IMG/VR virus record: IMGVR_UViG_3300030118_002654
Location: 9,038 to 30,640 of that record
Length of the DNA stretch: 21,603 nt
Source of the DNA: a virus
Strand: one strand, 5' to 3'
The notes under the pieces are model-generated. The model was given only the letters and a program-made list of their open reading frames with translations. It had not been told where the DNA came from and did not search any database. The position numbers and the translations under genes are program-made. This document shows, piece after piece, positions 1,168 through 15,443 of the stretch (its first letter is position 1; every line of letters begins with the position of its first letter).

Positions 1168-1384
1168 AAAACAAAATAAAAGACTAGGTGCTATTCTTTC
1201 TGTTATGTTTGATGAAGATACACCTAAAGAACATCTGCAAGAAATAGTCAAAGAAGGCTTTGTTACCAAAAATGGCGATAACTTTGATATTACACCAAAA
1301 GGTCTTGATGAAAAAAACAGACTTTGCACATTGGCAGGTTTAAATATTAAATATAGTAGTGAAAAAAATACTAACGCCAATTAG
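1154..1384 (+). CDS. Small protein of unknown function, possible winged-helix-like end
   Basis: A 76-residue, lysine-rich protein that overlaps the preceding gene by 14 bases. Residues 36-60 (FVTKNGDNFDITPKGLDEKN and onward) have the look of a short beta wing followed by a helix, as in small DNA-binding proteins, but this is a weak visual impression. Its last 14 bases overlap the convergent oxygenase gene tail to tail. No ribosome site stronger than GGGAAA is visible, so translation probably depends on the upstream gene. Confidence 0.6.
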   Translation: MALSKKQNKRLGAILSVMFDEDTPKEHLQEIVKEGFVTKNGDNFDITPKGLDEKNRLCTLAGLNIKYSSEKNTNAN

Positions 1385-1925
1385 GACCTTCATACCAACC
1401 AACTAATGAATATCTTTTTCCTTGTGTAACTGGCGTAACTCTATGGTATAAGAAAGAAGGAAATACTATAACAGTTCCTTTCTGTTTAATAATTTCTTGA
1501 CTTGGGGTTTCTATATCTTTAGTAAATAAAAATTCTCCGCCTATATATTCTTCTGGCTCTGAAAGTTGAACAGTAATACCTAGCTTTCTTACAGAAGATC
1601 TATTATCTATCCTCATATCTAAATGCTCATCATAATGTCCATTGTCTGTATACTCAGCTATCTGAAATTCTTTAAATCCATTTAGTTCAAATCCGAAGCA
1701 TTCACTATTTGCCAAGATTATATATTTTTCTATATATTTATTTATAGTATTATTGTTTTCAGTTCCATAAGGAAAACCTAATACATTAGATTTTCTTATG
1801 GAATTATCTGTAGAATTATTGCCAATCTTGCCTTCTTCTGTTGTCTCTGCCTTATATAAAGATTTTATATTTTCGCAATCTATATTTGAGATCTCAGCAT
1901 CCCAAGCGAACCACCAAGAATTCAT
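1371..1925 (-). CDS. 2-oxoglutarate/Fe(II)-dependent oxygenase (prolyl 4-hydroxylase-like)
   Basis: A 184-residue enzyme of the 2OG-Fe(II) dioxygenase superfamily. The iron ligands are visible as His101 and Asp103 in DEHLDMR, with His161 in PSFLYHRV. Arg171 in GKRYSLVGW is the expected 2-oxoglutarate-binding residue. IGGEFLF and GTVIVFPSF are typical strands of the jelly-roll core. The family uses 2-oxoglutarate, O2 and iron to hydroxylate proteins, nucleic acids or small molecules, and such genes are common in marine phages. The motif spacing is prolyl-hydroxylase-like rather than the TET/JBP type, so direct base oxidation is not supported. It is the last gene of the long minus-strand block, starts directly after the stop of the small gene before it (TAAATG), and ends tail to tail with the plus-strand lysis-side genes. 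Confidence 0.88.
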   Translation of the reverse strand: MNSWWFAWDAEISNIDCENIKSLYKAETTEEGKIGNNSTDNSIRKSNVLGFPYGTENNNTINKYIEKYIILANSECFGFELNGFKEFQIAEYTDNGHYDEHLDMRIDNRSSVRKLGITVQLSEPEEYIGGEFLFTKDIETPSQEIIKQKGTVIVFPSFLYHRVTPVTQGKRYSLVGWYEGPNWR

Positions 1926-3003: not shown

Positions 3004-3874
3004 TATCTTCTAGTTGTTGTTTTTCTAAGAAGTCAATAGACTTCTGTGCTTGTGAAAATGCCCTAACCATTGCTTTTGAATCTTCTTTTATGAGTGAAAT
3101 CCAAGAGTTGAGATATTTAGCGTGATTCTCCCTAACAGTTTTCTCTACACCGAGAATTCTGCAAAGAAAAGCTGAACCAACTTCAGCAACTAATTCTTCT
3201 TTTGCATAATCTCTAATAGAATTACCTTGTAGGTCTCTATTACATCTGCTCTTATGACCAGTCCAATGTGTGAGTTCATGTAATAATGTAGAGTAATAAT
3301 CAACATCTGTATCAAAATCAGTCTTATTCGGCATACCAATGTAATCTCTTATTGGTGAGTAAAATGCTTGTGATTCGTCATGAAATATTTTTGCTTCTGT
3401 ATTGGCTACGAAAAGATCTACTGACTTTGATTTGCTTTCTGTAAGTTCTACTGAATGGACATTAGGTATAATATCAGATACAAAATCTTCTACTTGATCT
3501 CCGTTAAATACTGCATAATTTTTCCATAAAAAGTATTTAGGTAATTTGCCTGTGGATTTATAAAGAGCGAGTTCGTCATCTTTAAGCCATTCAGGTTTTT
3601 TATCTTTTACTTCACAGAAAACTACTCTGCTTGCTTTACTGCCTTTTTTGATTTGATAGCCTTTTTCTGACCATTGTTTGAAAGTAGCCCATTCGTGAGA
3701 TCTAAAATCTTGCACTGATAACCAAAAGCTATTCATACCTCTGTAAGGTTTTTTGCTTATATGGTTGATAGGTGCAGGTTTTGAAGTCCAAGGTTTGTGC
3801 CAATCAGTACCTTCTTTTTGCATAAGGTCTACAATCTTGTCTTGGATTTGTTCTAGTATTTCTTGTGTTTTCAT
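2990..3874 (-). CDS. ArdC-like antirestriction / ssDNA-binding protein with metallopeptidase domain
   Basis: A 294-residue protein with the two-part ArdC architecture. The N-terminal half (about 1-135) has family-typical PWTSKPAPINHISKKPYRGMN, GYQIKKGSKA and an aromatic region ending YAVFNGDQV, and is associated with binding single-stranded DNA. The C-terminal half has a zinc peptidase motif HELTH (His199, Glu200, His203), continuing WTGHKSR, and a following EELVAE helix (about 226-231) that would give the third zinc ligand. Plasmid ArdC protects entering DNA from restriction. In a phage, protection of incoming DNA or a replication role is the likely use, but this is inferred. It has its own copy of the repeated 19-base element and a roughly 80-base leader, so it may be transcribed separately from the block upstream. 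Confidence 0.88.
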   Translation of the reverse strand: MKTQEILEQIQDKIVDLMQKEGTDWHKPWTSKPAPINHISKKPYRGMNSFWLSVQDFRSHEWATFKQWSEKGYQIKKGSKASRVVFCEVKDKKPEWLKDDELALYKSTGKLPKYFLWKNYAVFNGDQVEDFVSDIIPNVHSVELTESKSKSVDLFVANTEAKIFHDESQAFYSPIRDYIGMPNKTDFDTDVDYYSTLLHELTHWTGHKSRCNRDLQGNSIRDYAKEELVAEVGSAFLCRILGVEKTVRENHAKYLNSWISLIKEDSKAMVRAFSQAQKSIDFLEKQQLEDKEVA

Positions 3875-3903
3875 TTTATTTTCCTTTAATTATTTTCAAT
3901 TTA

Positions 3904-3924
3904 AACAAGTTTTCTAAGCTTGTT
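3904..3924 (-). other. Inverted repeat in the leader of the ArdC-like gene
   Basis: AACAAG and CTTGTT form a six-pair stem around a nine-base loop, about 50 bases before the ArdC-like start. It lies inside the predicted 5' leader and may form a weak hairpin. It is AT-rich and short, so its meaning is uncertain. Confidence 0.3.
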
Positions 3925-3956
3925 AATATATAATTTTATATTGTTGTCAGAAAAAG

Positions 3957-3975
3957 TAAACCTTTTTTGGAATAA
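3957..3975 (-). promoter_or_regulatory. Copy A of the repeated 19-base promoter/operator element
   Basis: The minus strand reads TTATTCCAAAAAAGGTTTA, in the short gap between the HNH gene stop and the ArdC-like gene, pointing toward the latter. A TATAAA box follows GGTTTA after 16 bases, so the right part of the element sits where a -35 box would be. See the finding on the six copies. Confidence 0.65.
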
Positions 3976-3978
3976 TAT

Positions 3979-4278
3979 TTAATCTTTTTTTACCATAGAA
4001 TTAACCAGTTCAAGTAGTTCATACTCCGTACCATAGGCTTTTTCAAACCTAGCTTTGTATGGGTGACGACTTATAGGTTCCATATCACTACCCATTCTAT
4101 GATGCTCAAAGCATAAAGGCAGTACCTTAAAATGCGTATCAGGTTTTGTCTTGCCTTCAATATGGTGTATCTCTGCAGGAACTCCATAAAAGCCTTGTAA
4201 ATAACAAACAATACAACCTAGTTGACTAACCCTATCCATGTGTTTTTTTTCCTTAGAGTTAGGGTTTCTGCCTTTCAC
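3979..4278 (-). CDS. Ref-like HNH-type nuclease
   Basis: A 99-residue protein with the zinc and HNH-like pattern of the phage P1 Ref / DUF968 group. It has Cys22 and Cys25 (GCIVC), His38-His39 (EIHHIEG), then LPLCFEHHRMG with Cys56 and His59-His60. P1 Ref is a RecA-dependent DNA endonuclease, so a recombination-linked nicking or cutting role fits the neighbours (ERF, PD-(D/E)XK nuclease, GIY-YIG). The start is GTG at 4276-4278, overlapping the previous stop as GTGA. I keep it rather than the ATG at 4239 because the residues before that ATG (RNPNSKEKKHMDRV) look like the family's conserved N-terminus. It is shorter than P1 Ref and covers mainly the catalytic core. Confidence 0.82.
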   Translation of the reverse strand: MKGRNPNSKEKKHMDRVSQLGCIVCYLQGFYGVPAEIHHIEGKTKPDTHFKVLPLCFEHHRMGSDMEPISRHPYKARFEKAYGTEYELLELVNSMVKKD

Positions 4279-4730
4279 TTGTGTTTGTTATATATAGGTT
4301 GGTATCTTTCTATTAAAATCTTTTCCCAATATAGTTTTCTATCTTCTCTACAATGTAAGTATCTTACTCTATCAAATTTTTTATCTCTTATATGGCTATT
4401 TAATCTGTTATAAATATTTTTGGTTTGACCTACATATACAATGACATCTTCGTTATAAAGTACGTAAACACAATCTCTTATAATCTGATCAATGTAAAAG
4501 TCTTTTCTTACTTTACATCCACCTTCATATTTGTGTTTATATTTTGGTTTTTTTTCTATATATGCAGGTCTTGTTATTCCTGTTCCATACGAAACAGGCT
4601 CTAAAAAACCTTCGTTATTTGTAGCACAGTAAACGTACAACTTATCCCTATCCAAATCTGTAGCAAGTTTCATGCTCTTATTAAAATGATTTATATGGTC
4701 GTGCAGACGTAATATTAAATTATGCTCCAT
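4275..4730 (-). CDS. GIY-YIG nuclease-domain protein
   Basis: A 151-residue protein with a GIY-YIG nuclease domain at its C-terminal end, about residues 86-149. It has VYV (88-90) in place of GIY, YVG (99-101) followed by QTKN, the catalytic-type Arg109 in NIYNRLNSH, and the likely metal-binding Glu136 in YWEKILIERYQPIYN. The N-terminal 85 residues are not recognised and are basic near the middle. Such enzymes make single- or double-strand DNA cuts, as homing endonucleases or repair/junction nucleases. There is no intron or interrupted gene nearby, so homing is not indicated. The ATG at 4728-4730 has AGAGGA upstream; an in-frame start at 4790 would overlap the coiled-coil gene by about 70 bases. 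Confidence 0.85.
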   Translation of the reverse strand: MEHNLILRLHDHINHFNKSMKLATDLDRDKLYVYCATNNEGFLEPVSYGTGITRPAYIEKKPKYKHKYEGGCKVRKDFYIDQIIRDCVYVLYNEDVIVYVGQTKNIYNRLNSHIRDKKFDRVRYLHCREDRKLYWEKILIERYQPIYNKHK

Positions 4731-7903: not shown

Positions 7904-8107
7904 ATGCAGTTAAAAGAATATTTAAAATCTAACAACTATACACAAATGTCTTTTATACAAGAGATAGAAACTCAAAGAAATGTGCGTATACCGCAAGGCA
8001 CTTTAGCAAAGTGGATAACAGGTGTAAGAATACCAAGAAAAAAAGAAATGATTTTATTGGTTGAGGTTACAGATGGCAAAGTACAACCAAATGATTTTTA
8101 TATGTAA
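7904..8107 (+). CDS. Cro-like helix-turn-helix regulator
   Basis: A 67-residue protein with a small lambda-repressor-like DNA-binding domain. It has LKEYLKSNNYTQMSFIQEIE as helices 1-2 and GTLAKWITGVRIPRKKEMIL as the recognition helix and following helix, ending DGKVQPNDFYM, as in Cro/CI-type regulators where the last helix is followed by a short tail. It has no peptidase or dimerisation domain of the CI kind, so it resembles Cro or a small operon repressor. The ATG at 7904 has no clear Shine-Dalgarno site. The gene starts the plus-strand sugar/modification operon and lies next to a copy of the repeated element, so it is the best local candidate for binding it. Confidence 0.75.
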   Translation: MQLKEYLKSNNYTQMSFIQEIETQRNVRIPQGTLAKWITGVRIPRKKEMILLVEVTDGKVQPNDFYM

Positions 8108-8505
8108 TGAAGATAGGTTTTACTTGTGGTGCCTTTGATCTATTGCATGCAGGTCACGTAGTTATGCTAAAAGAGTGTAAGGAAAATTGTGAATATTTGA
8201 TTGTAGGTTTGCAAACTGACCCAACACTTGATAGAAAAGAAAAAAATAAACCAGTTCAATCTATGTATGAAAGGTATATGCAGTTACAAGCTATTAAGTA
8301 CGTTGATGAAATAATTCCTTACGACACAGAAGATAGCTTGGTAGATTTGCTTGAATCCACACCTATCAATATAAGGTTTATTGGCGAGGATTATAAAAAT
8401 ATTAGCTTTACTGGCGAGGGTTTGCATAAAACTTTTTACACAAGCAGACGTCATACATTTTCAACAACATCACTCAGAGAAAGAGTACAAAAACAGGATA
8501 TATAA
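8107..8505 (+). CDS. Cytidylyltransferase-like nucleotidyltransferase (TagD/RfaE-C type)
   Basis: A 132-residue enzyme of the HxGH nucleotidyltransferase superfamily. FTCGAFDLLHAGHVVML contains the nucleotide-binding HAGH (His14, His17). RYMQLQAIKYVDEIIPY (56-72) and STTSLRER (119-126) match the R-x3-L-x4-YVDE and [IF]STT-x2-R blocks of glycerol-3-phosphate cytidylyltransferase and related enzymes. These join CTP (or ATP in some relatives) to an alcohol or sugar phosphate, releasing pyrophosphate. The length equals that of TagD. The substrate cannot be read. In this operon it sits just before a glycosyltransferase and an epimerase, so making an activated sugar or polyol for that pathway is likely. 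The ATG overlaps the regulator stop (TAATG). Confidence 0.87.
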   Translation: MKIGFTCGAFDLLHAGHVVMLKECKENCEYLIVGLQTDPTLDRKEKNKPVQSMYERYMQLQAIKYVDEIIPYDTEDSLVDLLESTPINIRFIGEDYKNISFTGEGLHKTFYTSRRHTFSTTSLRERVQKQDI

Positions 8506-9117
8506 ATGGAAACACAAAATATAGATATAGAAAAATTAAGTCCATATAAAAACAATGCTAGAAAGCATACCGAGCAACAAATACAACAAATTGCTAATTC
8601 CATAGTTGAGTTTGGTTTTGTAAATCCAATTCTTATAGATGAAAACCAAATGATTCTTGCTGGTCACGGCAGATATATGGCGGCACGCTATTTGCAATTA
8701 CCTGAGGTGCCTATTATTGAAATTAAAGACCTAACAGATGCACAAAAGAAAGCATTTGTTATAGCCGATAATAAAATAGCCAATAATTCAACGTGGGACG
8801 AAACAGTGCTTTGGCAAGAAATACAAGAATTAAACAAACTTGGTTTTGATCTAAATATATTGGCTTTTAATGAAATGGAGATCTTGCCTATTACTGATCC
8901 TAATGTTGTAGATGATCCTTTAGCAGAGTGGGAAAATATGCCTGAATTTATATCAGAGGACAATACTGCTCATAGAACATTGTATGTACATTTTAATAAT
9001 GAAGAAGAAGTTCAAAAGTTTGCAGAATTGGTAGGTCAACAGATAACTGATAAAACCAAATACATCTGGTACCCTGAACAAACAAACATGAACACCGAAA
9101 GTAAAAGGTATGAATGA
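8506..9117 (+). CDS. ParB/Srx-fold nuclease-like protein
   Basis: A 203-residue protein with an N-terminal ParB-like domain, about residues 3-95. IDIEKLSPYKNNARKHTEQQ, then FGFVNPILID, then ILAGHGRYMAARYL with the signature GHGR (53-56), followed by KKAFVIADNKIAN. After an acidic linker, a second small domain (about 145-195) has LYVHFNNEEEVQKFAELVGQ and KYIWYPEQ, a combination I know from phage ParB-like proteins near terminases and DNA modification genes. It does not have the helix-turn-helix part of a partition ParB, so plasmid-type partition is unlikely. Phage members have been discussed as nucleases, NTPases or DNA-modification helpers. Its place between the cytidylyltransferase and the glycosyltransferase supports a DNA-linked role. 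Confidence 0.85.
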   Translation: METQNIDIEKLSPYKNNARKHTEQQIQQIANSIVEFGFVNPILIDENQMILAGHGRYMAARYLQLPEVPIIEIKDLTDAQKKAFVIADNKIANNSTWDETVLWQEIQELNKLGFDLNILAFNEMEILPITDPNVVDDPLAEWENMPEFISEDNTAHRTLYVHFNNEEEVQKFAELVGQQITDKTKYIWYPEQTNMNTESKRYE

Positions 9118-10759
9118 TCCTAAATTTCCACTTTATATACCAAGCAAAGGTAGATATGAATCAAGATTAACTTCTAAATGGCTTGATAAAATAAATCTAC
9201 CTTACAAGTTGGTTGTTGAGCCAGATGAGTATGATTTATACGCTAATCAAGTATCTGAAGATAAATTATTGGTTCTTGATATGTCTTACAAGGACAAATA
9301 CGAGTATTGCGATGATTTTGGAACAGAGAGGCCAACAGGAAGTGGTCCTGCAAGGAACTTTATATGGGATCATTCTGTAAGTCAGGGGCATAAATATCAT
9401 TGGATAATGGACGACAATATACGGTCTTTTAGACGTATGAATAAAAATGAAAAGATAAAGGTCAACAATGGTTCTATGTTTGCCGCAATGGAAGATTTTG
9501 TATTGCGCTATAAAAACGTGGCTATGGCAGGACCTCATTATACTTTTTTTAGATCTGCGCGAAGTTCAAGTCCTCCGTTTACTCTTAACTCAAGAGTATA
9601 TTCCTGCAATTTAATTAAAAATGACGTACCTTTTAGATGGAGAGGCAGATATAACGAAGATACGATTTTATCTTTAGATATGCTTAAACAAAATTGGTGC
9701 ACTATTCTTTTTAATGCTTTTTTACAAGAAAAAATGACCACACAAACAGTTAAAGGTGGTAATACAGACACCATTTATGTTGATGGAACTTTAGATAAAT
9801 CACAAATGTTGGTAAATGTTCATCCTGATGTATCTGAACTTAAATGGCGATATGGAAGATGGCATCATTCTGTTGATTACAAAGTTTTTAAAACAAAGCT
9901 TGTAAGACAGGACGATCATAAAGTTACAAAAGGGATTAATAATTTTGGAATGAATTTAGTTGTAAAAAAAAATGAAACTTTGGATTTTGGTATAAACATT
10001 GAAGGCTTTATAGAATCTTGTACTAAATATATAGACGTAGAAAAGAAAAAATTAAGAGATGAAATTGATATCAGTATTAAACAGTTTCGTAAGCAGGAAA
10101 AAGATATAGGTGAACTTGGTCGTTTAGAAAAAATTTGGTATGACTCACTAAATGACAAGATTGATTATTCAGTTTATGCGGATGATTTTTACTTTGCAGA
10201 AGTATGGAAGTGTTGGATTTTGTACTCAAGAAAATATCTCAAAGATATACAAAAACCAAATTCACTTTTTGACAAAAGCATTTACAAAGATATGTCTAAT
10301 GTGGATTCAGTTTTGGATCTCGGTTGCGGTATGGGCTATACAACAGCTTTTCTAAAAAAGTTATTTTCAGATGCAAAAGTTATAGGTACAAATCTTGAAA
10401 ATACATTACAGTTTAAATTGGCAAGTCAACTTGGTACTACTTACGATTTTAAAATTATGGAAGATCTACCAGACAGCAATATGGATTTAATTTTTGCTTC
10501 TGAGTATTTTGAGCATATAGAAAGACCGATTGAACATTTAAAAGAAGTTTTAGAAAAAAACAAACCAACACATCTTTTAGTTGCAAATACATTTAACCAA
10601 CCTGCTATTGGTCATTTCATTAACTATAAAGATGGCAGTGATGTTCTTAATGGAAAGGAAACATCTAAAAGATTTAATGAAACACTAAAAAATTACGGTT
10701 ACAAAAAAATTAAAACTAAATTATGGAACCAAAGACCTAATTATTGGAAATTTCAATGA
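9110..10759 (+). CDS. TET-associated-type glycosyltransferase fused to a class I SAM methyltransferase
   Basis: A 549-residue two-domain enzyme. Residues 1-285 match the glycosyltransferase family found beside TET/JBP base oxygenases in phages (TAGT, GT-A fold): LYIPSKGRYESRLTSKWL, VVEPDEYDLY, SGPARNFIWDHS, HWIMDDNIRSF with a DDN metal site (101-103), RWRGRYNEDTILSLDML, KGGNTDTIY and YGRWHHSVDYKVF. A helical linker (290-395) follows. Residues 398-549 are a Rossmann methyltransferase with motif I VLDLGCGMGY (Asp403-Gly409) and IFASEYFEHIERP after motif II. By family, the first half transfers a sugar from a nucleotide sugar, in known contexts onto modified DNA bases. The second half could methylate the sugar or the base. 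The gene overlaps the ParB-like gene by eight bases and the epimerase start by four (ATGA), so the products are made together. Confidence 0.85.
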   Translation: MNDPKFPLYIPSKGRYESRLTSKWLDKINLPYKLVVEPDEYDLYANQVSEDKLLVLDMSYKDKYEYCDDFGTERPTGSGPARNFIWDHSVSQGHKYHWIMDDNIRSFRRMNKNEKIKVNNGSMFAAMEDFVLRYKNVAMAGPHYTFFRSARSSSPPFTLNSRVYSCNLIKNDVPFRWRGRYNEDTILSLDMLKQNWCTILFNAFLQEKMTTQTVKGGNTDTIYVDGTLDKSQMLVNVHPDVSELKWRYGRWHHSVDYKVFKTKLVRQDDHKVTKGINNFGMNLVVKKNETLDFGINIEGFIESCTKYIDVEKKKLRDEIDISIKQFRKQEKDIGELGRLEKIWYDSLNDKIDYSVYADDFYFAEVWKCWILYSRKYLKDIQKPNSLFDKSIYKDMSNVDSVLDLGCGMGYTTAFLKKLFSDAKVIGTNLENTLQFKLASQLGTTYDFKIMEDLPDSNMDLIFASEYFEHIERPIEHLKEVLEKNKPTHLLVANTFNQPAIGHFINYKDGSDVLNGKETSKRFNETLKNYGYKKIKTKLWNQRPNYWKFQ

Positions 10760-11595
10760 GAATACTTGTAACAGGTGGCTGTGGGTTCATAGGTAAAAAC
10801 CTTATAAATAATTTGGTGGATAAACATTCTGTAATGTGTCTTGATAACAATTTAACAAGCACAATGGAAGACACTGTTGCAGGTTGCGAATATATCTATG
10901 GCAATACAAAAGACTGCATGATGCTTTCACATAATAATTTTGACCTTATCTATCATTTAGGAGAATACTCTAGGGTAGAAAGAAGTTTTGAAGATATAGA
11001 TATTGTGTTTGAGAATAATTGGAATTCTATTTACCAAGTTCTAAAACTAACTAAATATTGTAATGCAAAACTTGTATATGCAGGTTCAAGTACGAAGTTT
11101 GGCGATAATGATACCAACTATAAAGAAAGTCCTTATGCATTTACTAAATACTGTAATGCAGAACTTGTAAAAACATATTGTGATTGGCATAACCTAAGAT
11201 ATGCCATTACATATTTTTATAATGTGTATGGTGAAGGAGAGATAGATAATGGTCCTTATGCAACTGTAATAGGTAAATTTTTAAAAGCAAAAAAAGAAGG
11301 CAAAAAAGTTGATATTACTGGTGATGGAAAACAAGTTAGAAATTTCACACACATAGAGGATATTGTAGATGCACTTATGATTGTTGCCGAAAAAGGACAA
11401 GGTGATAGATTTGGTATTGGTAGTGATGTTTCATACAGCATTATACAAGTTGCAGAGTTGCTTGACCTTGATTACAGATTTACACCTGATCGCAGAGGAA
11501 ACAGAAAAATATCTAGCCTTATAACTAAAAATACAAGAGATTTAGGGTGGAAACCTAAAAAAGACTTACAAAATTATTTAAAAAAAGTGCGTTGA
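10756..11595 (+). CDS. NAD-dependent sugar-nucleotide epimerase/dehydratase (extended SDR)
   Basis: A 279-residue extended short-chain dehydrogenase/reductase. The NAD site is VTGGCGFIG (G-x2-G-x2-G, residues 5-13). The catalytic pair is Tyr127 and Lys131 in SPYAFTKY, with the partner serine/threonine in AGSSTKFG (110-116). Further family blocks are FYNVYGEGE and VRNFTHIEDIVDAL. It most resembles UDP-glucose 4-epimerase/UDP-glucuronate epimerase-type enzymes, but the exact sugar cannot be decided by eye. It is slightly shorter than typical GalE (about 330 residues). I start it at the ATG at 10756, overlapping the previous stop as ATGA; a TTG 12 bases earlier is not needed. It would process the nucleotide sugar used by the glycosyltransferase upstream. 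Confidence 0.88.
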   Translation: MRILVTGGCGFIGKNLINNLVDKHSVMCLDNNLTSTMEDTVAGCEYIYGNTKDCMMLSHNNFDLIYHLGEYSRVERSFEDIDIVFENNWNSIYQVLKLTKYCNAKLVYAGSSTKFGDNDTNYKESPYAFTKYCNAELVKTYCDWHNLRYAITYFYNVYGEGEIDNGPYATVIGKFLKAKKEGKKVDITGDGKQVRNFTHIEDIVDALMIVAEKGQGDRFGIGSDVSYSIIQVAELLDLDYRFTPDRRGNRKISSLITKNTRDLGWKPKKDLQNYLKKVR

Positions 11596-11693: not shown

Positions 11694-11945
11694 ATGAAAG
11701 AAAAAATATTACAAGAACAATCAAAAGAAAGTTTTGAAGAATATATAACCAAGAAAAATAAGTCAGACCTTTTTTGCACAGGTCAAGTATTCTATGAAGA
11801 TGGTACTGTAGGAACTACATACCATAACGATAGCGGCTTGATTGGATTATGGCATGATAGATACTGTTACATAATACCCGAACACCTTCAAAAAAGAAGC
11901 AGTTCAGAGAAAAAATCTACAATAGCTTCATTAAACAGGTCATAA
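11694..11945 (+). CDS. Small protein of unknown function
   Basis: An 83-residue protein. The middle is a likely beta-rich unit (DLFCTGQVFYEDGTVGTTYH, then HDRYCYIIPEHLQ) and the tail is Ser/Lys-rich. No family is recognised. The ATG is preceded by AAAGGAAAATAAA, nearly the same initiation region as the ArdC-like gene on the other strand. It leads the short operon before the replication genes and has its own promoter-like element. Confidence 0.7.
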   Translation: MKEKILQEQSKESFEEYITKKNKSDLFCTGQVFYEDGTVGTTYHNDSGLIGLWHDRYCYIIPEHLQKRSSSEKKSTIASLNRS

Positions 11946-14612: not shown

Positions 14613-15443
14613 TTATTTAAAACGTATTTTATTTATTTTCTCTCTTTCGTCTAATTTGTATTGTTTTCTTATATTATTGTTAATATCTAATACAGTTTGC
14701 AGAAGAGACATATTATCTTGTGAAAATTTAAGAAAGGCTAAAGTGTCTTTTGGTAGACAAGCACCACCAAAACCACGTTTTAGATCATAACCTGGCACTT
14801 TTGTATGACTTGACCCTATACGTTTATCTAAAGTGACACCTTTCATAACAGAGTTGTAAGAACAGTTATTGTCTTGGCAAAGATCATATAACTGGTTGAA
14901 GAAAGAAACTTTGGTAGCAAGAAAAGAATTACAAGCATACTTAATAAAAGATGCTTCTTGCGGTGTAACAATTACATAATGTAATGCTTCACACATTGAA
15001 TATCGTTTGTATAGATTAATTAGCTTATCAGAGGCACTATAATTACCGCCCATTATATGGTATTCGGCACTAACAAATTCTTCATTCGCTGAGCGTTCAG
15101 TAAGAAATTCTGGATTATAAATTATATTAGGGTTGTTGTGACTTGTTATAAGATCTCCAACAATATCTGGTGTCACAGTAGATTTAATAACTATTAAATC
15201 TGTGTTGGTCTTTTGTACAAGATAGTTGACTGTTTCTCTTACTATAGAGGCATCTACAAAACCTGTCTCTGCATTTGTTGGTGTAGGTACAGTAACAAAA
15301 ACCACATCATGTGGAGTTTTGCTTAAAATGGATATGTCAGTGTTATAAACTGGATCAATGATTGTTTTCTCTATACTAGGGTGTGTAAATGCAAAGTCTA
15401 CCGCTTTACCAACGAAACCATGTCCGACTATTCCTAATTTCAT
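14613..15443 (-). CDS. UDP-glucose/GDP-mannose dehydrogenase family protein, lacking the C-terminal domain
   Basis: A 276-residue enzyme of the family that oxidises a nucleotide sugar to its uronic acid. The NAD site is GIVGHGFVG (4-12). Active-site blocks are VTVPTPTN, IKSTVTPDIVGD, IYNPEFLTERSA (Glu112), FIKYACNSFLATKVSFFN (Lys168, Asn172) and GFGGACLPKD with the catalytic Cys229. The central helix follows, and the protein ends about 45 residues after the cysteine. Full members have about 390-450 residues with a C-terminal UDP-binding domain, which is absent here. The frame ends cleanly at a stop just before the terminator, so this looks like a stable short form rather than a broken gene. 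It is alone on the minus strand with its own copy of the 19-base element. It is likely part of the same sugar pathway as the epimerase. Confidence 0.87.
   Translation of the reverse strand: MKLGIVGHGFVGKAVDFAFTHPSIEKTIIDPVYNTDISILSKTPHDVVFVTVPTPTNAETGFVDASIVRETVNYLVQKTNTDLIVIKSTVTPDIVGDLITSHNNPNIIYNPEFLTERSANEEFVSAEYHIMGGNYSASDKLINLYKRYSMCEALHYVIVTPQEASFIKYACNSFLATKVSFFNQLYDLCQDNNCSYNSVMKGVTLDKRIGSSHTKVPGYDLKRGFGGACLPKDTLAFLKFSQDNMSLLQTVLDINNNIRKQYKLDEREKINKIRFK

Follow-up and report, generated by a model that had tools for sequence, protein, structure and literature searches.

The TET-associated glycosyltransferase (TAGT) of phage T6 acts on glucosylated hmC DNA (PMC13216743). It is the sole TAGT with a described product in the literature cited here. 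Solitary TAGTs were reported for 288 of the 753 phage genomes having these glycosyltransferases (PMC13216743). ParB-like proteins are also known from DNA modification: ParBc domains are often fused to DNA methyltransferases (PMC12783734), and DpdB, a ParB-like ATPase, drives base insertion (PMC12839542).

The locus described here lies in a window of 21,603 nucleotides, which covers bases 9038-30640 of a 30.6-kb contig (IMG/VR record IMGVR_UViG_3300030118_002654). The phage is of marine type. Set against a complete relative, the contig lacks about 20 kb of structural genes; it is a fragment. The preliminary description had proposed a tightly overlapping operon for a cytidylyltransferase, a ParB-like protein, a TAGT fused to a methyltransferase and a sugar-nucleotide epimerase. 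All of these genes were recovered as ORFs that overlap or abut, with verified family matches, and the gene calls hold. The rightward operon is opened by a small Cro-like HTH protein (7904..8107, plus strand; phrog_35, 1.5e-5), whose gene abuts that of the cytidylyltransferase and is kept at the slot edge in TAGT-positive and TAGT-negative relatives. We consider it likely that this operon encodes a cassette for post-replicative DNA glycosylation, placed in a slot for exchangeable DNA-modification modules.

The fusion of glycosyltransferase and methyltransferase was confirmed by HMM search of the protein encoded at 9110-10759. The TAGT domain (9110..9967, plus strand) matched PF20691 at residues 6-217 (E 1.7e-42) with 146 bits, above the curated cut-off of 27.5. 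It shares 45-53% identity with the TAGTs of Kuja, Aeh1, phiAS5 and PTm1, and at least 594 relatives are present in IMG/VR. The DDN and RWRGRYNED motifs are invariant in the TAGT alignment. The acidic metal/nucleotide-binding motif of GT-A enzymes is intact: D101-D102-N103 is invariant among 13 aligned members, and among 47 members D101 and D102 are invariant and N103 is kept in at least 90%. The predicted structure reached a pLDDT of about 90 or higher across most of residues 1-210. With the whole fusion protein, the best 50 Foldseek matches were all methyltransferases, leaving the GT-A fold unconfirmed by this search. The C-terminal class I SAM methyltransferase domain (9968..10759, plus strand) matched Methyltransf_31/23/11 at residues ~399-498 (~1e-7), and the methyltransferases matched by Foldseek were of class I. 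In one relative (L006, 96%/90% identical) the domain is missing and the flanks are joined; elsewhere the methyltransferase is a gene of its own, upstream or downstream of the TAGT. By this comparison the domain is an optional decoration, inserted exactly.

For the ParB-like protein (8506-9117) the earlier assignment was right as to the N-terminal domain, but a second, undescribed C-terminal domain had gone unnoted. The ParB_N domain (8506..8772, plus strand; PF02195, 1.8e-9) matched phrog_620 (7e-50) and the ParB part of the DNA methyltransferase phrog_498 (4e-46), and Foldseek assigned it to the ParB/Noc CTPase fold (4e-8). The central HTH centromere-binding domain of ParB partition proteins is absent. 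The C-terminal half, with no other Pfam match, is a module which we named WM (8914..9117, plus strand, delimited by alignments). It comprises the final ~65 residues, with the consensus W..MPEF....TL.VHF..EE.V..F..L..Q..T.KTK.IWYP. No match was obtained for WM in Pfam, PHROG or NCBIfam; the structure model of the tail was of limited confidence, and no fold match was specific to it. WM loci were located by a DNA motif scan, and WM adjoined or was fused to a TAGT in all 116 motif-selected loci. Conversely, 132 of 143 TAGT loci had a paired WM. It is fused N-terminally to the TAGT in Kuja, 1.124.O, 1.076.O, Aeh1, avDM6, POP12 and PTm1. A triple fusion ParB-WM-TAGT (L125) and a GT32-like-ParB-WM fusion were also found. 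By this comparison WM marks the TAGT clade of the window in an exclusive partnership, and it offers a sequence signature for this clade and a candidate obligate partner. Possible prophage loci were found in named bacterial genomes, e.g. of Pantoea, Erwinia and Chryseobacterium; Chryseobacterium gambrini and Rhodovulum euryhalinum are among the candidate prophage carriers.

Relatives with conserved synteny carry other enzymes in this slot. ParB was found together with Tet_JBP (+ GATase; Amidoligase_2 gave a weak match under the cut-off), with a C5-cytosine DNA methylase, with an N6/N4 methylase, and with DpdA-like, QueC and FolE proteins (L319). A Mom-like GNAT (GNAT/ABC protein) was a further partner of ParB there. 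The ParB tail tracks the partner: WM occurred with TAGT in 14/14 cases and an alternative tail, TETc, with TET in 17/17, a few contigs being counted twice. Homologues of the cytidylyltransferase, the epimerase and the UDP-glucose 6-dehydrogenase-like enzyme (UGD) were found in none of 25 TAGT-less slots. By comparison, the slot shows itself as a site of module exchange for DNA modification in this phage lineage, with TAGT and TET as mutually exclusive alternatives. The reading as "TET-associated" is thus not supported for this slot. The preliminary description had centred a DNA-modification cassette on the TAGT, a view supported here, and left the class of acceptor open. Because the ParB slot of syntenic relatives holds known DNA-modification enzymes, DNA is now strongly favoured as the predicted acceptor; the sharing of the slot, together with the match of tail and partner, gives the best evidence for it. 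An ArdC-like protein, formerly taken as corroboration, is equally frequent in TAGT-less relatives and was ruled out as a member of the system, since it occurs in those of the syntenic group. The partner-matched tails suggest a general rule, by which ParB-type adaptors would correspond 1:1 to phage DNA-modification enzymes. Such a rule would make the unexplained association of ParB with these enzymes testable.

The proposal that the phage makes its own activated sugar is borne out by the UGD and epimerase of the window and by UXS or UDP-glucuronate-4-epimerase-like enzymes in relatives. The UGD gene (14613..15443, minus strand) lies 3 kb from the cassette on the opposite strand. Its product was recognised as UDP-sugar dehydrogenase (PF00984 (UDPG_MGDP_dh), 1.4e-20; PF03721, 1.9e-13; TIGR03026, 7e-43), but it is short (276 aa), and the C-terminal UDP-binding domain PF03720 was missing in the Pfam scan, as likewise in a homologue of 294 aa (L010). 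The catalytic Cys in GFGGACLPKD, Lys/Asn in IKYACN and the NAD-binding GHGFVG are all kept. UGD is coupled to an epimerase in three TAGT-bearing relatives (L164, L170, L256) and adjoins one in L210. The window epimerase (10756..11595, plus strand) is an extended SDR enzyme, and its family was confirmed (PF01370 (Epimerase), 7.1e-38); its start is more likely ATG 10756, giving an ATGA overlap with the preceding stop, than the TTG 10744 assumed before. It carries the motifs GGCGFIG, SSTKFG and YAFTK, and in relatives epimerases also stand directly 3' of the TAGT. Assignment to UXS was rejected on account of SSTKFG in place of the catalytic signature TSEVYG, and by signature the canonical UDP-glucuronate 4-epimerase was not matched either. 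UXS directly follows the TAGT in L233 (identified by comparison with the PDB) and L020 (by signature), with TSEVYG/TSEIYG, and UDP-glucuronate-4-epimerase-like enzymes are present in related cassettes. Since UGD is joined by UXS or by epimerases in related cassettes, a donor sugar derived from UDP-glucuronate is suggested with weak to moderate confidence. An epimerised uronic acid, as formerly proposed, is plausible, but by signature the window epimerase is neither a UXS nor a canonical UDP-glucuronate 4-epimerase. The cytidylyltransferase-like nucleotidyltransferase (8107..8505, plus strand; phrog_7878 type; PF01467 (CTP_transf_like), 8.7e-17) accompanies TAGT at many loci, where it takes either of two positions. 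Assignment to TagD (glycerol-3-P) or HldE/rfaE_dom_II was not reached, both scores lying below the NCBIfam equivalog cut-offs (67 and 71 bits; cut-offs 165 and 181). Additional sugar-tailoring genes stand downstream of the TAGT in the slot, encoding a methyltransferase, a GT32-like enzyme and a putative glycosyltransferase.

The UGD, epimerase and cytidylyltransferase families are usual in surface polysaccharide synthesis. Together with the GT32-like enzymes in the slot, they would fit a cassette altering the host surface (LPS or capsule) for receptor change or superinfection exclusion. We regard this as improbable. A membrane or polyprenol-linked glycosyltransferase was not recognised in the cassette, a ParB-type adaptor is fused or coupled to the TAGT (and to the GT32-like enzyme in the fusion mentioned above), and the sharing of the slot with TET, DpdA and C5 methylase would be left without reason. 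Still less probable is a protein acceptor, by which the TAGT would glycosylate virion or tail-fibre residues hydroxylated by a phage 2OG-Fe(II) oxygenase, comparable to the glycosylation of collagen hydroxylysine. The window encodes such an oxygenase at 1371-1925 (PF13640, 1e-15; not Tet_JBP), and G001, a complete relative of 53 kb, has a collagen-repeat fibre (PF01391, 5e-126), after which come genes for a PF13640 oxygenase, an FkbM methyltransferase and a GT25 + GT_PLOD glycosyltransferase. However, this fibre cluster brings its own glycosyltransferases, and the TAGT is tied to ParB/WM and not to structural genes, in a slot common to DNA-modification enzymes. The window oxygenase sits 6 kb from the TAGT, adjoining lysis genes; with homologues in TAGT-less syntenic relatives, it was rejected as a member of the system.

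With DNA as acceptor, the state of the base has to be considered. As a non-exclusive sub-case, the base could carry a hydroxymethyl or hydroxy group that comes from the host or from an enzyme encoded in the missing ~20 kb; this is possible, though on the unlikely side. It would agree with the action of the T6 TAGT on glucosyl-hmC (PMC13216743) and with the thymidylate-synthase-family proteins encoded by Aeh1, avDM6, PTm1, POP12, Kuja and 12B8 of the same TAGT clade. Against it, a recognisable base-hydroxylating enzyme was found neither in the contig nor in G001. In agreement with the preliminary description, which saw no TET/JBP oxygenase, cytosine methylase or hydroxymethylase in the window, profile searches over the fragmentary 30.6-kb contig yielded no TET/JBP or thymidylate-synthase-like gene, and C5 methylase was unmatched among the window proteins scanned. 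Both of the former genes were also absent from G001 and from Vibrio phages 1.124.O and 1.076.O. Among 49 TAGT records, Tet_JBP occurred in none, C5 methylase in 4 and the thymidylate-synthase family in 7 (six isolates with genomes >100 kb and one contig). As positive control, Tet_JBP was detected in 5/5 carriers, and it was absent from all 7 TAGT carriers searched alongside. A speculative and rather doubtful alternative is that the WM-TAGT with its ParB-WM adaptor couples its sugar, a uronic acid or a pentose, straight to a canonical base, at an exocyclic amine for instance, independently of hydroxylation, the C-terminal ParB tails forming an enzyme-specific adaptor code. If true, direct base glycosylation would be a way of modifying DNA that the literature cited does not describe.

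For the favoured DNA-glycosylation cassette the following course is proposed. The ParB protein with its WM tail may, with moderate confidence, serve as a DNA-loading adaptor, bringing or licensing the TAGT on phage DNA. A sugar probably made from UDP-glucuronate by the phage UGD and epimerase would then pass through the TAGT to a DNA base, and the cytidylyltransferase-like enzyme would activate another precursor. The methyltransferase might then cap the sugar; modification of the base is the less likely option. By analogy, the product may shield the phage DNA against restriction.

The T6 TAGT (beta-glucosyl-HMC-alpha-glucosyltransferase) belongs to PF20691 like the window enzyme, and its sugar goes to phage DNA (PMC13216743). 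In contrast, it has 279 aa, lacks WM and ParB and is encoded beside a dCMP hydroxymethylase. The window clade includes small phages without hmC source, and for a T6-type hydroxymethylase no thymidylate-synthase-family protein was found in the incomplete contig or in G001. Since the T6 enzyme is very distant (E 0.005 only against the profile of the window clade), function would be transferred by family only. In Mosigvirus arabinosylation (RB69) phage-encoded nucleotide-sugar synthesis is likewise combined with a DNA glycosyltransferase; it uses a 5-hodCMP synthase of the thymidylate-synthase family, not found in the window phage, and a ParB/WM partner is not mentioned in the passages considered (PMC6024577, PMC13390438). 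In TET/JBP hypermodification clusters, e.g. of Rhodococcus phage Tonitrus (PMC11955845), a ParB-like protein is coupled to a base-modifying enzyme as observed here, and in syntenic relatives clusters of this type use the same genomic slot. The window cassette differs by a TAGT in place of TET, another ParB tail, and nucleotide-sugar genes instead of amidotransferase/kinase genes. In the 7-deazaguanine system Dpd, the ParB-fold DpdB partners the base-modifying DpdA (PMC12839542), comparable to ParB and TAGT in the window, and the Dpd-like cassette of L319 occupies the slot of the window TAGT. Dpd exchanges the base, whereas glycosylation is predicted for the window cassette.

The gene reading of the preliminary description was borne out. 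On the linear viral contig of 30,640 bases, of which the window covers bases 9038-30640, four plus-strand open reading frames between 8107 and 11595 abut or overlap one another, and the Pfam families agree. A cytidylyltransferase-like protein (CTP_transf_like, 8107-8505) is followed by a ParB_N protein (8506-9117), a TAGT glycosyltransferase with a class I methyltransferase (9110-10759) and an NAD-dependent epimerase (10744 or 10756 to 11595). The profile search proposed for 9110-10759 identified both the methyltransferase and TAGT, the latter with 146 bits (Pfam cut-off 27.5); the TAGT domain is 45-53% identical to those of the phages Kuja, Aeh1, phiAS5, PTm1 and others. For the short nucleotide-sugar dehydrogenase on the minus strand (14613-15443, Pfam), GxGxxG, Lys/Asn and catalytic Cys motifs are present, but Pfam detected no C-terminal PF03720 domain. 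Among the sets compared, a small protein of unknown family behind the epimerase (11694-11945, plus strand) was confined to relatives with TAGT (L006, L007, L283, L286). Next to the lysozyme gene, and without linkage to TAGT, lies a PF13640 2OG-Fe(II) oxygenase (1371-1925, minus strand) whose HxD...H motif is intact.

The final ~65 residues of the ParB-like protein had no match in Pfam, PHROGs or NCBIfam and were named WM after their W..MPEF motif. WM was present in 132 of 143 TAGT loci, most others being cut at contig ends; 93 loci encode ParB-WM, 29 WM alone or with another N-terminus and 8 a WM-TAGT fusion. WM without ParB_N adjoins TAGT in L014 and L015. Fusion to the TAGT N-terminus was observed in 1.124.O, both Kuja enzymes, Aeh1, avDM6, POP12, PTm1 and 1.076.O (the last five with profile E 6e-15 to 2e-20), and L125 encodes a triple fusion ParB-WM-TAGT. 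To avoid selection on TAGT, a degenerate DNA pattern encoding KTKSIW[YF]P was run against IMG/VR. Among the 120 loci found, four lacked WM by profile; the 116 with WM all carry TAGT (86 within 60 bases, 23 within ~1.1 kb, 7 fused). We regard WM as an undescribed partner domain of TAGT.

Three side observations concern such loci. In L233/L307 a 435-aa protein (3218-4525) with a GT32-like N-terminal region fused to ParB-WM lies upstream of TAGT and UDP-xylose synthase. The TAGT frame of L016 (3629-3982) stops after 117 aa beside an intact ParB-WM, so that either the copy has decayed or the sequence contains an error. WM-TAGT-type genes also occur on contigs of named isolates of Pantoea, Erwinia, Chryseobacterium, Rhodovulum, Marivivens and Xenophilus (L104, L107, L111, L112, L103, L129, L114); these may be prophages and could then serve as starting points for experiments.

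Relatives were fetched by two flanking genes, a primase-helicase and a PD-(D/E)XK gene, and the content between them was compared. Both flanks without TAGT were found in 31 loci, or 25 after dropping contigs fetched twice. Most of these slots encode a ParB_N protein whose C-terminal tail and coupled partner differ from WM and TAGT. The occupants were a Tet_JBP dioxygenase with GATase (L310, PF12851 3e-22), a C5 cytosine methylase (L348, PF00145 3e-45; also L326, where an endonuclease is added), in L319 a queuine-transglycosylase/DpdA-like protein alongside QueC and GTP cyclohydrolase I, in L281 an ABC/GNAT protein that we read as Mom-like, an N6/N4 methylase (L323) and, weakly, a glucosyltransferase-like protein (L313); an Amidoligase_2 match in L322 was weak and below cut-off. 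Homologues of the cytidylyltransferase, epimerase and UDP-glucose dehydrogenase (UGD) were detected in none of the 25 slots; ArdC and 2OG oxygenase occur there. Among the slot relatives WM accompanied TAGT in 14/14 cases and a second tail Tet_JBP in 17/17, with fewer independent cases, since a few contigs were fetched twice; the latter count holds partly by construction, because that profile was made from nine of the same 17 proteins (the WM profile also from other loci). Partner-specific tails were seen beside TET, DpdA, C5 methylase or GNAT enzymes (L310, L285, L292, L319, L326, L348, L281). Such tails suggest a general adaptor rule beyond TAGT.

Regarding sugar supply, the cytidylyltransferase-like gene precedes ParB in the window, L006, L010, L028, L241 and L248, and follows TAGT with a 4-base overlap in L036, L041, L076-L078 and L083. 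The TAGT loci L164, L170 and L256 couple UGD to an epimerase; in L210 the two genes are adjacent and the cytidylyltransferase follows. L233 encodes a true UDP-glucuronate decarboxylase directly after TAGT (PDB UDP-xylose synthase, 7e-119), and L020 has the same signature. The epimerases of L256 and its kin carry the signature GLRFFTVYGPWGRPDM, which we read as the UDP-glucuronate 4-epimerase type. In the PDB the L256-type enzyme matched 6zl6 (4.6e-42), presumably a UDP-glucuronate 4-epimerase, and best 5u4q, deposited as dTDP-glucose 4,6-dehydratase. The window epimerase, with SSTKFG, corresponds to neither of these types by signature. As the UDP-xylose synthases and 4-epimerase-type enzymes are expected to act on UDP-glucuronate, this is likely the common intermediate.

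The methyltransferase is an optional cassette. In L006, 96% and 90% identical to the window on the two sides, it is absent and TAGT continues into the epimerase; in other loci it is a separate gene immediately before or after TAGT. On a quick tree of 221 TAGT sequences its presence switches at least 11 times, a count that contig truncation can inflate. In L008, L009 and L011 its position is instead taken by a DXD glycosyltransferase, and in L237 by a putative glycosyltransferase, as would be expected if an attached sugar is tailored.

Of the possible acceptors, DNA has the best support, since the other slot occupants are recognised DNA-modification enzymes. TET and TAGT are mutually exclusive: Tet_JBP was detected in 5/5 records chosen as carriers, in 0/7 TAGT records of the same search and in 0/49 other TAGT records. 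The lack of TET/JBP noted in the preliminary description extends to the whole contig of 30,640 bases, where neither Tet_JBP nor a thymidylate-synthase-family (TS) gene was found. The 53-kb relative G001, probably complete as its ends share a ~136-base repeat, showed no TS, Tet_JBP or C5 methylase; 1.124.O and 1.076.O showed no TET or TS, and 1.124.O a weak C5-methylase match. TS-family proteins occur in six large isolates carrying the window TAGT clade, so a hydroxylated pyrimidine is possible there. For the small phages, either direct glycosylation of a canonical base or a hydroxylase of unrecognised type may apply. Separately, G001 (L277, 3139-10877) encodes a collagen-repeat fibre that ends in an S74 chaperone; behind it lie genes for a 2OG-Fe(II) oxygenase, an FkbM methyltransferase, a cupin and a GT25 + GT_PLOD protein. 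This arrangement looks like a phage-encoded cluster for collagen hydroxylation and glycosylation.

Most likely, ParB-WM would load onto phage DNA and present TAGT, which would transfer a sugar derived from UDP-glucuronate, and the methyltransferase would cap it. The TAGT puzzle is already known at family level, as solitary TAGTs were flagged as potential novel transferases (PMC13216743). No earlier description of WM as a partner, of the slot or of the match between tail and partner was found in the literature searched, most subscription journals lying outside it. In contrast to the window clade, the T6 TAGT is without WM, and its match to the clade profile is no better than E 0.005; the window TAGT thus belongs to a deep clade of its own within the family. 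The nearest precedents for ParB-WM with TAGT are DpdB, a Dpd-system ATPase that resembles ParB (PMC12839542), and the fusions of ParBc to DNA methyltransferases, which are frequent and of unknown function (PMC12783734).
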